Shown one piece after another: positions 1,851 to 64,000 of a DNA stretch of 64,000 bases (position 1 is the first letter of the stretch; the number at the start of each line of letters is the position of its first letter). The translations under genes were made by a program, and so were the position numbers. This stretch comes from Emcibacteraceae bacterium (lineage in GTDB: Bacteria > Pseudomonadota > Alphaproteobacteria > Sphingomonadales > Emcibacteraceae): NCBI GenBank assembly GCA_021774795.1, contig JAJFIR010000048.1, positions 1 through 64,000 of the forward strand, in the 5' to 3' direction. The notes under the pieces were generated by a model. That model saw only the letters and a list, made by a program, of their open reading frames with translations. It ran no database searches and was not told the DNA's origin.

Positions 1851-3254
1851 TTATAATGCGTTAATTGCTTTTTCAATATTTCCGAGCGCGTGTGTAAGTG
1901 TTTTTCGGTTTGTTGCGAGGTTCATACGCATATAGCCCATACCCCCTTTACCGTAATTTTCGCCCGGATTAATATCAATTCTGGCATTATCCATGAACCA
2001 CTCTTTAAGATAATCGCCAGTGCCATATTTTTTAATACTTGTTACACCAAAAAAATCCGTTGCAGTCACATTATTTTCAACGTTATATGCTGTAAGCTCG
2101 ATTGCTTTATTTTTAGCATCGAGCTTTTCGCTAAGTGCGCTAACATCGAGCCAGGCGAGATACGTGCCTTGGTGAACTTTATATTTGATCAGTGGAATAT
2201 TATCGGCGCAATATTTTTCGACATACCGGGCATTTTCGGTAAGATAAGCATTTTGCTCATCAATATAAGCGTCACCATGTTTAAGTGCTTCATTTGAAGC
2301 AATCATACCCATAATATTAAGAAGCAAACGTTGGTGTCCACCTTTAAGTACCTTGTCGATATAAGCGCGATTATGAGAGAACATATAACCCGTGCGATGC
2401 GCAGCAAGGTTAAATGATTTGCTTGTTGACTTTAGCGTAATGCTATTTTGTGCATATTCTTCGCCGATGGAAGCGTATGGTACATATGTTTGGCCTTCCA
2501 TCACGAAATCACAATGGATCTCATCGGCGATCACCAACACGTCATTCTTATTACAGATATCTCCCATTTTTCGAAGCTCATCGGCAGTCCAGCAGTTGCC
2601 GGTGGGGTTTTGCGGATTACAAAGGATGTATTGCTTGATACCACCGGCTGCCTGGGCTTCAAAATCATCCCAATCAACTTCATATTTTCCGTTGACCATC
2701 TTCATTTCGCTCATGGCTTCATGCATATTCGCGTGGTGAATTGTGGTGAAGAAACTTGAATAGTTTGGCGTCGTGAGCAAGACATTATCGCCCGCTTCGC
2801 CAAAAGCGTTTAATATACTTAATACACCATCAAGAACTCCAACACAGTTAAGAATATTGCCTTTTGGAACATCAGCACCGTAACGACGTTTATTCCAGTC
2901 AACAATATTTCCAGGGTAATCAAGCGGTGGGATTTCATAACCCCAGTTCTCTATCTCTAAGCGTTTTTTAAGAGCGTCCGTCACCTGTGGCAGGGTTTTA
3001 AAGTCCATATCGGCAATTCCCATGCCGACATCCAACGTTTTGCCGGGATTAAACATTTTGATCAAATCAAACTTGATGCTGTTCGTGCCAACGCGGTTAT
3101 ACCCTTCATCGAAATTAATTGTTGTAGACATAGATATGCTTTGCCCCATTCCTTTGGCCATTGCCGGAACGGTACCTAGCGCGCTTCCAAATAGTGCTGC
3201 TGCGCCTGCCGTCTTCATAAAAAACCGGCGATCGAGTTTAGTTTTATCATTCAT
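1851..3254 (-). CDS. Tat-exported PatB/MalY-like PLP-dependent aminotransferase/C-S lyase (copy 2)
   Basis: A 467-residue paralogue of the gene at 303-1640, clearly similar along its whole length. It begins with the twin-arginine signal KLDRRFFMK and an AMA-K cleavage site. The motifs ADMDF, NPQNPTGNCW, ADEIHCDF and STSKSFN are all kept, with the PLP lysine at Lys279 by codon count. The main difference is a longer segment in the C-terminal domain around VENNVTATDFFG, which may alter substrate choice. It has its own terminator and its own copy of the shared upstream palindrome, at 3348-3363. The tandem arrangement points to duplication followed by divergence. Substrate unknown. Confidence 0.88.
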   Translation of the reverse strand: MNDKTKLDRRFFMKTAGAAALFGSALGTVPAMAKGMGQSISMSTTINFDEGYNRVGTNSIKFDLIKMFNPGKTLDVGMGIADMDFKTLPQVTDALKKRLEIENWGYEIPPLDYPGNIVDWNKRRYGADVPKGNILNCVGVLDGVLSILNAFGEAGDNVLLTTPNYSSFFTTIHHANMHEAMSEMKMVNGKYEVDWDDFEAQAAGGIKQYILCNPQNPTGNCWTADELRKMGDICNKNDVLVIADEIHCDFVMEGQTYVPYASIGEEYAQNSITLKSTSKSFNLAAHRTGYMFSHNRAYIDKVLKGGHQRLLLNIMGMIASNEALKHGDAYIDEQNAYLTENARYVEKYCADNIPLIKYKVHQGTYLAWLDVSALSEKLDAKNKAIELTAYNVENNVTATDFFGVTSIKKYGTGDYLKEWFMDNARIDINPGENYGKGGMGYMRMNLATNRKTLTHALGNIEKAINAL

Positions 3255-61649: not shown

Positions 61650-61868
61650 CTAATTCTGCATTGAACAAAAATCGATATTAAGTTTCCTAAGACCTTGGTT
61701 TTTAACAAGATAAAATGATTTAGCCTCTAACGGTACTTCAGATAACTTAACATCAGTTATCTGATAATGTTCTCTTAATCCTTGATAAATTTCATTCAAG
61801 CCGCTGAGCACGAGCATAAGCATTAATGGAATGAAGCTTAATCCAATTATATTCAATAAAATGTCCAT
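61650..61868 (-). CDS. Small single-span membrane protein
   Basis: A 72-residue protein starting at ATG 61868 (MDILLNIIGLSFIPLMLML), preceded by GGAG at good spacing; the track's upstream ATG lies within that ribosome-binding site. One N-terminal membrane helix is followed by a soluble part of about 45 residues. I recognise no family. It is divergent from the phosphatase array, with a GTTC/GAAC repeat array between the two, 35-80 bases upstream of its start. Confidence 0.55.
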   Translation of the reverse strand: MDILLNIIGLSFIPLMLMLVLSGLNEIYQGLREHYQITDVKLSEVPLEAKSFYLVKNQGLRKLNIDFCSMQN

Positions 61869-61950: not shown

Positions 61951-62048
61951 GTGGAAAATATAAAAATCCAAGATAAAATAATCTTGTTGAATAGTTTCAG
62001 CAGAATTCGTATAGTTTTTAGACATGATAACAATCAGGAATCTTCGTT

Positions 62049-62624
62049 ATGCACATACAGAAAATGGCCAAGAAAATTTCTCACGGTATTATTTATTCAA
62101 TAGTCGTAGCGTTTTTAATGTCCAACATTTCATATGCACAAGATGCGTCATTAGGTGTAAAAGGTGATCAAATTGAATTTGGAAACTTAAAGAAAGTCAG
62201 TCAGTTTGGCCATGTTGTTTTTGCCGACCAACCAGATAAAAATACGATTGGAATGCTGAAAGATAACGATATTAAGCTTGTTTTAAATATAAGAGCTTTT
62301 AACGAAAATGAAGGTTATGACGAACAAAAGGCCGTTGAAGCCGAGGGTATAGCCTATCTTCAAATTCCATATATGAAAGGCAGATCAATTAACGGAGAGG
62401 CCCTGGATGAAATTTTGGATGTTGTTTACGCAGCCGGTAAGAATGGTACTAAGATGATGCTTCACTGTACCCGGTCAGAACGTGCCGGTTCCGTCCTGGG
62501 AGCGGCGTTATACCGCGATTTAGGATTTTCGAGGGAAGATGCGGGTGTAATGGCAAAAGAGGCAGGATTAACCAGTGAGTTTTTAACCAAGATTCATAAT
62601 GAATATTTAGACGGTCTTAAATAG
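62049..62624 (+). CDS. Exported DUF442-like (C-x4-R) phosphatase, paralogue 1
   Basis: A 191-residue protein with a Sec signal peptide ending SYAQ, about residue 31. The mature part matches the beta-lactamase-hydrolase-like/DUF442 branch of dual-specificity phosphatases: FGHVVFADQPDKNTIGMLKD, LVLNIRAF, then the P-loop HCTRSERAGS with Cys140 and Arg145 (C-x4-R, one residue shorter than the classical C-x5-R), and the LYRDLGFSREDA helix. Substrate unknown; periplasmic location inferred from the signal. First of three tandem paralogues. Confidence 0.82.
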   Translation: MHIQKMAKKISHGIIYSIVVAFLMSNISYAQDASLGVKGDQIEFGNLKKVSQFGHVVFADQPDKNTIGMLKDNDIKLVLNIRAFNENEGYDEQKAVEAEGIAYLQIPYMKGRSINGEALDEILDVVYAAGKNGTKMMLHCTRSERAGSVLGAALYRDLGFSREDAGVMAKEAGLTSEFLTKIHNEYLDGLK

Positions 62625-62644
62625 TTTTAAAAGGGAATAGAAAA

Positions 62645-63238
62645 ATGACATATAGAAGCTTCATCAAATATACTCGATACTTAAGCGTTATAAGTATGGC
62701 CTTTCTTATTATTATAAACTGCGCCAGTGCACAAAATATATCGCTTATAACCGAGGGTAGCCAAACACCGTTCGGAAATTTGGATAAAACACCAATGCTT
62801 GGAAATGTAGTTTATAGCAGGCAGCCGGATGAAAATACTATTCCAATGCTCAAAGATAAAGGATTTGATCTGGTTTTGAGTGTACGTTTCGATGATGAGC
62901 CTGTCGGGTTTAATGCACGTGAAATAATTGAGCAAAACGGAATGTCATTTGTACAAATTTCTTATTTCAAGGGCAGTATAAAGGACCGACCGCGCCAGGT
63001 CGATGATCAAGCAGTAGAACAAATTAAACAGGTTCTGGAAAGTAGTCTGGCTAAGGGCGACAAGATATTGATGCACTGTCAATCCGGCCAACGCGCGGCG
63101 GCGGCGCTAGGTTCAATTTTATATCGCGACTACGGTTTTTCTAAAGAGGAAGCCAGAAAATATGCGGAAAAAGCTGGGTTGACCAGTAAAAATACAGGTG
63201 CAGTTTATGATCGATATATTGATGATATAAAGCGTTAA
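62645..63238 (+). CDS. Exported DUF442-like (C-x4-R) phosphatase, paralogue 2
   Basis: A 197-residue paralogue of the preceding gene, 20 bases downstream. A hydrophobic signal sequence ends near CASAQ, about residue 30. The same blocks recur: FGNLDKTPMLGNVVYSRQPDENTIPMLKDK, LVLSVRF, the P-loop HCQSGQRAAAALGS (Cys145) and ILYRDYGFSKEEA. GGGAATAG precedes the ATG. Probably co-transcribed with its siblings. Substrate unknown. Confidence 0.83.
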   Translation: MTYRSFIKYTRYLSVISMAFLIIINCASAQNISLITEGSQTPFGNLDKTPMLGNVVYSRQPDENTIPMLKDKGFDLVLSVRFDDEPVGFNAREIIEQNGMSFVQISYFKGSIKDRPRQVDDQAVEQIKQVLESSLAKGDKILMHCQSGQRAAAALGSILYRDYGFSKEEARKYAEKAGLTSKNTGAVYDRYIDDIKR

Positions 63239-63259
63239 AATATAATCTGGGATTAAATT

Positions 63260-64000
63260 ATGTGTAATGTTTTTCGCAGCCTTAAAATCATACTATTATC
63301 TGTTTTTATATCATCCTGCACACAATCAACAACTTTATCTAACGTGGATCGCCTTGAGGAACGCCAGCAAGCACCTTTTGGAAATTTGGAAATTACGCCC
63401 TATTTGGGAAATGTTGTTTATGCCGCGCAGCCAGATGAAGAGACGGCCAGAATGTTTAAGGAACAAGGATTCGATTTGGTGATTAATCTTCGCGAGTTAA
63501 ACGAAGATTTAGGTTTTGACGAAAAAAAAATTGTTGAAGAACTAGGCATTACATATATGCAAATCCCTTATCTTGAAGAACCTGACCTTAGTGCTGACTT
63601 CAGTAATGATGCCCTTAGTAAAGTGAAAACGGCAATAGATGAGGCAACGGATAAAGGCGAGAAAATACTCTTACATTGTAGCCATGGTCAGCGGGCAGGG
63701 TCATCTTTAGGGATGATCTTATATCGGGATTATGGATATTCGAAGGAAGATGCCTTTAAATATGCCACAGCTGCGGGAATGAACTCAGAATGGGCGGTGC
63801 CAAAATATCATAAATTTATTGATAACTCGTTGGTCAGGGTGAAATCGTTTGGCGGTATTAATAATATAGTTAAGTATAAGAATTTTTATATTGCCAGCCA
63901 ACCAAGTGCTGATGCCATCAATATGATGAAAGAAAGGGGTATTTCAACCGTTATTACTAATCGTGCGCAAAAAGAAAATGGTGGATTTGAAGAACAAAAG
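63260..64000 (+). CDS. DUF442-like phosphatase lipoprotein with second domain (runs off window)
   Basis: Open from ATG 63260 to the window edge (247 codons), missed by the ORF track because it has no stop in view. The N-terminus is a lipoprotein signal with lipobox FISSC (Cys20). The first domain repeats the family blocks: FGNLEITPYLGNVVYAAQPDEETARMFKE, P-loop HCSHGQRAGSS (Cys140) and LYRDYGYSKEDA. After about residue 190 a second copy of the domain begins (SFGGINNIVKYKNFYIASQ, then ISTVITNRAQ) and is cut by the window end. So this gene is a fusion of two phosphatase-like domains. Whether the second keeps its P-loop is outside the window. Confidence 0.8.
   Translation, partial: MCNVFRSLKIILLSVFISSCTQSTTLSNVDRLEERQQAPFGNLEITPYLGNVVYAAQPDEETARMFKEQGFDLVINLRELNEDLGFDEKKIVEELGITYMQIPYLEEPDLSADFSNDALSKVKTAIDEATDKGEKILLHCSHGQRAGSSLGMILYRDYGYSKEDAFKYATAAGMNSEWAVPKYHKFIDNSLVRVKSFGGINNIVKYKNFYIASQPSADAINMMKERGISTVITNRAQKENGGFEEQK

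Follow-up and report, generated by a model that had tools for sequence, protein, structure and literature searches.

The window (the whole stretch of DNA analysed, 64,000 nucleotides in length, from a marine alphaproteobacterium) ends within a tandem array of three consecutive genes, A, B and C, which encode related and apparently exported proteins with a Cys-X4-Arg loop. The array and the features directly upstream of it are as follows.

61650..61868, - strand: small membrane-protein-like open reading frame of 72 aa, divergent from gene A, with a hydrophobic N-terminus
61987..62015, + strand: weak sigma-70-like promoter candidate, TTGAAT-17-TATAGT (9/12), about 34 bases 5' of gene A
62049..62624, + strand: gene A, 191 aa, apparently exported, single-domain Cys-X4-Arg protein
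62463..62483, + strand: loop of A, HCTRSER
62645..63238, + strand: gene B, 197 aa, apparently exported, single-domain Cys-X4-Arg protein
62972..63001, + strand: B-specific insert GSIKDRPRQV, preceding the catalytic helix, its Asp being invariant in the B clade
63074..63094, + strand: loop of B, HCQSGQR
63260..64000 in the window, continuing to contig position 64315, + strand: gene C, 351 aa, lipoprotein-like, two-domain Cys-X4-Arg protein
63674..63694, + strand: loop of C1, the first domain of C, HCSHGQR
64148..64168 of the contig, past the window, + strand: loop of C2, the second domain of C, HCGSGDR

Gene C continues for 315 bases beyond the end of the window, with its stop at contig position 64315. 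The sequence-only reading had described three consecutive related genes with the first three of these loops, and all of the open reading frames and motifs lie where it placed them. The tandem paralogy stands as well, although the count of three copies does not: since C carries a second domain beyond the window, the array comprises four Cys-X4-Arg domains (A, B, C1 and C2) in three genes. The extension of the contig that had been proposed for counting the copies revealed this fourth loop and demonstrated that the array ends after C, no further copy being present 3' of gene C in the extended contig. A profile search of the remainder of the host genome likewise returned no other array-type copy. 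A and C1 share 41-44% identity with B, and C2 shares 23%, while E-values for the array domains in their own genome ranged from 1e-65 to 6e-77 with a profile built from these same domains. Those identities and E-values, together with the recurrence of the array in 12 of the 14 genomes of its own genus (family sample, n = 33 genomes), indicate that the arrangement does not arise by chance.

The three genes share the + strand and are separated by gaps of 20 bases (A/B) and 21 bases (B/C), a spacing from which a single transcript is likely; as judged from the sequence, A, B and C probably form one operon and would be made together. Regarding the promoter candidate, it should be noted that sigma-70-like matches are abundant in the AT-rich stretch around it, with 17 found against 9.8 expected. 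The divergent 72-aa open reading frame was recovered in 11 genus loci, always upstream of the array, with 32-63% identity over the matched stretches, and it matched no Pfam or NCBIfam model. That it belongs to the array system is a guess.

Signal peptides were assigned by eye. Type I-like signals can be observed in A (SYA/Q) and B (ASA/Q), while C begins with the lipobox FISSC, and all three products are apparently located in the periplasm. The signals are thus as described in the sequence-only reading, in which two of the proteins were taken as soluble in the periplasm and the third as a lipoprotein. Conservation does not extend to the lipidation of C, however, because C in most relatives carries a type I-like signal in place of the lipobox, for example FFTLASAQ. 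All 14 single copies from the sister genus begin with signal-like or lipoprotein-like peptides, as do many of the gammaproteobacterial single copies, others of which appear cytosolic. Because exported single copies are frequent in the clade, export is ordinary there and the special part is the tandem expansion; the view that a secreted tandem family is unusual holds for the second of these attributes and not for the first.

The domains are predicted to possess the PTP/dual-specificity-phosphatase (DSP) fold in its DUF442-type variant, an assignment supported by modelling. The AlphaFold model of B, calculated on 15 aligned domains taken from the window and from loci L004-L006, displayed a mean pLDDT of 92.6 and a pTM of 0.88. 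In Foldseek its best PDB matches were the DUF442 structures 3gxg/3gxh (E 3.4e-9), followed by archaeal and eukaryotic PTPs and TpbA. The two-domain C orthologue of L004 (77% identical to C), modelled from four sequences with a pLDDT of 80.4, placed Cdc14 on top and also recovered the same DUF442 entries, with E down to 1.5e-7. Sequence-profile matches were obtained for 3gxg (E 4.9e-9), NMA1982 (9.8e-5) and TpbA (1.1e-4). The earlier proposal of a phosphatase-type fold, in which a P-loop carries the Cys and the Arg, is therefore supported by structure prediction and Foldseek, which place the domains within the PTP/DSP fold and not outside it. A rhodanese fold was rejected, since no rhodanese appeared among the first 50 Foldseek matches and the model is DSP-like; the scores of B (18.1 bits) and C (21.9 bits) against the rhodanese model PF00581 are both under its cut-off of 22.2 bits.

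Comparison with these structures reveals both likenesses and differences. The DUF442 protein of Shewanella putrefaciens CN-32 (3gxg/3gxh, YP_001181608.1), the best match by both profile and structure, shares the fold and a C-X4-R loop, but its loop (HCLANYR) is without the central Gly, the identity is 17-18% over the structural alignment, and it has been described only as a putative phosphatase. TpbA of Pseudomonas aeruginosa (4r0s/4r0t) is periplasmic and has the DSP fold, as the array proteins are predicted to be and have, but it is a single domain with a C-X5-R loop and a catalytic Asp. Cdc14 resembles C in carrying two tandem DSP-fold domains per chain; the likeness to the C orthologue is one of layout only, with about 12% identity and an rmsd above 12 Å over the pair.

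In terms of curated families, the proposed DUF442/BLH membership is formal for C, which as a whole protein reaches 28.9 bits (two stretches summed) against PF04273 (BLH_phosphatase/DUF442, gathering cut-off 26.1 bits) and also exceeds the Pfam cut-offs of DSPc and Tc-R-P. It does not extend to A and B, for which no match to PF04273 was listed at E up to 10 and no Pfam model scored above its cut-off. C scores about equally with NF040641 (52.8 bits, E 3e-14), TIGR01244 (46.7 bits, E 3e-12) and DSPc (52.9 bits), and it is far below the cut-offs of the first two (625 and 85.85 bits, respectively). B reaches 20.3 bits with TIGR01244 and 27.8 bits with NF040641, and A gives no match to the former and 18.6 bits with the latter, all under the curated cut-offs. 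The DUF442 domain of Blh, to which these two models correspond, thus has the fold family and the C-X4-R loop in common with the array domains, with weak but significant HMM matches, but in Blh it is fused to a persulfide dioxygenase, whereas the array domains are unfused to such a partner and apparently exported. As a separate observation, L166 (C25:414943-415812) encodes a stand-alone persulfide-dioxygenase half of Blh without the DUF442 half, and no DUF442-type copy beyond the exported array was found in the same genome.

The distribution of related proteins was analysed in samples of increasing breadth. In the sister genus, 14 of 16 genomes carry one copy, and none was found in three single-genome genera of the family; the relatives that bear names belong to Kordiimonadaceae, apart from an alphaproteobacterial MAG that is unplaced. 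With the first profile, one further genome matched at 1e-8 in the class sample (n = 385 genomes). A broader profile matched 84 of 399 genomes of the phylum sample at 1e-7, many of the hits being ordinary DUF442/Blh proteins, and a class search centred on a gammaproteobacterium, with class inferred, matched 61 of 368 genomes at 1e-12. Outside the genus, no two adjacent matches occurred in the family, class, phylum or gammaproteobacterial lists, which represent a sample and not a census. In G022 and G023, the two genomes of the genus that lack the array, the flanking genes match only distantly. The closest relatives in sequence are single copies (with E-values between 1e-27 and 3e-36 within the family and between 1e-20 and 3e-30 within the phylum), namely HCSSGNR-type proteins of the sister genus and gammaproteobacterial HC[AG][ST]GNR-type proteins, many with signal-like peptides. 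They differ from the array in lying singly at unrelated places and in the end of the loop, GNR versus SQR, GQR or GDR. In another proteobacterial genome (L099:3229-5655, + strand), an S9-family peptidase and, C-terminal to it, a Cys-X4-Arg DUF442-like domain form a single, apparently exported fusion protein of 808 aa.

In a tree built from 72 domains, each of the four types (A, B, C1 and C2) forms its own clade with a bootstrap value of 99-100. A, B and C1 are united in a larger clade (100/100) whose branching point lies among the single copies of the sister genus, which fits duplication from a single exported ancestor, while C2 is located on a long branch whose deeper placement is uncertain. 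The best explanation is that the four domain types arose by duplication in an ancestor of most of the genus. Values of dN were 0.16-0.48, with dS above 1.5 or saturated, and the low dN relative to the high dS therefore indicates purifying selection on all three genes. The fusion pattern varies: C1-C2 in most genomes, an A-B fusion with a lone C1 in L045, and an A-B fusion with broken remains in L051. It should be noted that the rearranged arrays of L045 and L051 also lack the TPR lipoprotein and GGDEF genes as neighbours. The array thus represents a genuine expansion, conserved and specific to the lineage, within a known and poorly characterised family. It had been put forward as the best candidate for an undescribed system, which holds for the tandem expansion in so far as literature searches on C-X4-R enzymes and on Kordiimonadaceae phosphatases returned nothing on the array; the enzyme family itself was already known.

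With respect to the active site, the loop in all four domains has six residues, one shorter than C-X5-R, and the classical signature is not present. His-Cys-X4-Arg is kept in 43 of the 43 intact genus domains in the tree, and alignment of 56 domains demonstrates that H115, C116, R121 and E56 are invariant, the Glu probably holding the loop Arg. As had been proposed, each paralogue has its own loop across the genus: HCTHSQR in A, HC[QAGE]SGQR in B, HCSHGQR in C1 and HCGSGDR in C2. The variant HCTRSER is found only in the genome of the window, the other 11 genus copies of A carrying HCTHSQR.

The sequence-only reading had called these C-x4-R proteins phosphatase-like. The phosphatase signature, however, is C-X5-R (PMC10716126), and sulfurtransferase activity has been shown for the DUF442 domains (CRTGTR) of both Blh and a Cupriavidus protein, in the latter of which the loop Arg is essential for taking sulfur from thiosulfate (PMC5823870, PMC8533005). 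Because C-X4-R is equally the loop of these Blh-type enzymes, phosphatase activity does not follow from it. Nor does loop length decide the chemistry, since NMA1982 of Neisseria meningitidis (2f46) has a loop of the same length (CRTGTR) and is a protein tyrosine phosphatase of proven mechanism, in which C95 and R100 act together with E53 and a putative general acid, D71 (PMC10716126). NMA1982 has the fold, the six-residue loop and the E-loop Glu in common with the array, but it is a single-domain protein, and its D71 has no conserved counterpart in the array. At this column S/G/T/E/Y/A/D are found in A, Q/H/A/N/S/T/G in B, D/E/G in C1 and mostly K in C2, so that the position is conserved neither within nor between the four types. 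The surrounding region is type-specific, with no insert in A, a GSIxDxxR-like insert in B, a short one in C1 and an NDRYGDIxDGK-like one in C2. The B insert contains an invariant Asp and several Asp are kept in C2; therefore another Asp could serve as the acid in B and C2. On sequence grounds, the invariant Cys, Arg and Glu fit both phosphatase and sulfurtransferase chemistry.

It is quite conceivable, if doubtful, that the array proteins are periplasmic phosphatases that follow the PTP mechanism with a shortened loop, the paralogues differing in their phosphorylated targets in the periplasm, whether proteins, lipids or small molecules. The PTP/DSP fold, the score of C above the DSPc cut-off of Pfam, the proven activity of NMA1982 (PMC10716126), the presence of TpbA, a periplasmic DSP, among the nearest structures and the invariant Arg-orienting Glu all point in this direction. 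Against it stand the general-acid position, conserved in none of the four types, the low turnover of NMA1982 itself and the replacement of the P-loop Gly by Ser throughout type A, a residue that all NMA1982 homologues reportedly share (PMC10716126). Furthermore, no kinase or phospho-metabolism gene is located near the array.

The neighbourhood consists of aspS, TPR/SPOR lipoprotein, enoyl-CoA hydratase, GGDEF, DEAD-box and parE genes, the end of gene C lying a few bases from the convergent enoyl-CoA hydratase gene. The synteny search that had been suggested placed the array at one position across the genus, with aspS and the TPR-lipoprotein gene on one side and the GGDEF and DEAD-box genes on the other, and this single position led to rejection of a mobile or recently acquired island. 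In most genus loci the convergent GGDEF gene is one or two genes away, which, together with the structural proximity of TpbA, recalls the TpbA/TpbB pair, a c-di-GMP module in which a periplasmic phosphatase would act on a diguanylate cyclase encoded nearby. Such a module is highly improbable here: the GGDEF protein has no obvious N-terminal membrane segment in its sequence and should be cytosolic, and in the A-B fusion genomes L045 and L051 there is no adjacent GGDEF gene and no copy was found elsewhere.

No sulfur gene adjoins the array, and sulfur genes were not enriched around about 35 relatives, mostly gammaproteobacterial (73 neighbours). Among 44 relatives, no recurrent neighbour family was found beyond synteny in one gammaproteobacterial family and a short-chain-dehydrogenase-type group. 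A sulfur context was observed in two distant relatives only, a YgaP-like rhodanese with an ArsR-family regulator in L092 and sulfur-transport genes in L098. In the sister genus (L054-L060), the exported copy lies beside presumed NAD-dependent formate dehydrogenase genes, with the sulfate-activation genes cysDN also present at several loci as judged by sequence. This context is at most a hint, because the genes in question run either towards the copy or away from it. At the opposite end of the window, two adjacent PatB-family C-S lyase-like PLP enzymes (303-1640 and 1851-3254, both - strand; 320 and 307 bits, cut-off 340) carry twin-arginine-like signal peptides (RRFFMK) and are apparently exported carbon-sulfur lyases.

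Sulfur transfer is slightly favoured over phosphatase activity. Our best guess at the chemistry, conjectured from sequence comparison, is that the array domains handle sulfane sulfur, to which we assign a probability of about 0.42, since the non-conserved D71 column counts against a proficient phosphatase of the NMA1982 kind. Sulfur transfer requires no general acid of the D71 kind, and the loop length with its Cys and Arg is that of Blh-type DUF442 (CRTGTR). The near-equal HMM scores of C with the sulfurtransferase models and DSPc, although the former are far below cut-off, and the two relatives beside sulfur genes (L092 and L098) also speak for it. The His preceding the Cys is typical of PTPs and counts against the sulfur reading, as does the array's own neighbourhood. 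In the proposed mechanism, each domain would present a nucleophilic Cys and an Arg on its six-residue loop. The Cys would take sulfur from thiosulfate, a persulfide or a polysulfide to form an enzyme persulfide, whose sulfur might subsequently pass to a thiol or, in a conjectured relay, to a neighbouring domain, and the four domains may differ in donor or acceptor. The more specific idea of a periplasmic relay, in which four specialised Cys-X4-Arg domains of the DSP fold and not the rhodanese fold, made from one operon, would take sulfane sulfur from a donor outside the cell or in the periplasm and hand it on to a dedicated acceptor, is itself improbable; we know of no exported DUF442 relay of this kind.

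It is rather unlikely that the domains are idle or weak enzymes which, as sensors or scaffolds, bind an anion or a periplasmic partner through the P-loop. One domain of tandem PTPs is often inactive, and the unconserved general-acid column, the tandem domains and the varying fused arrangement (mostly C1-C2, A-B in L045 and L051) would suit such a role. Binding alone, however, would not demand the Cys, which is kept with the Arg in every intact domain.

The sulfur-transfer reading and the phosphatase reading meet in a family where the assignment of C-X4-R domains to phosphate or to sulfur chemistry goes back, in each case, to one or two characterised proteins. Four natural paralogues in one probable operon, with fixed and different loops and general-acid regions, represent a ready set for separating the two chemistries. 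They also belong to an exported branch of the family that is common in Gammaproteobacteria, has expanded in one alphaproteobacterial genus and is partly missed by current family models.
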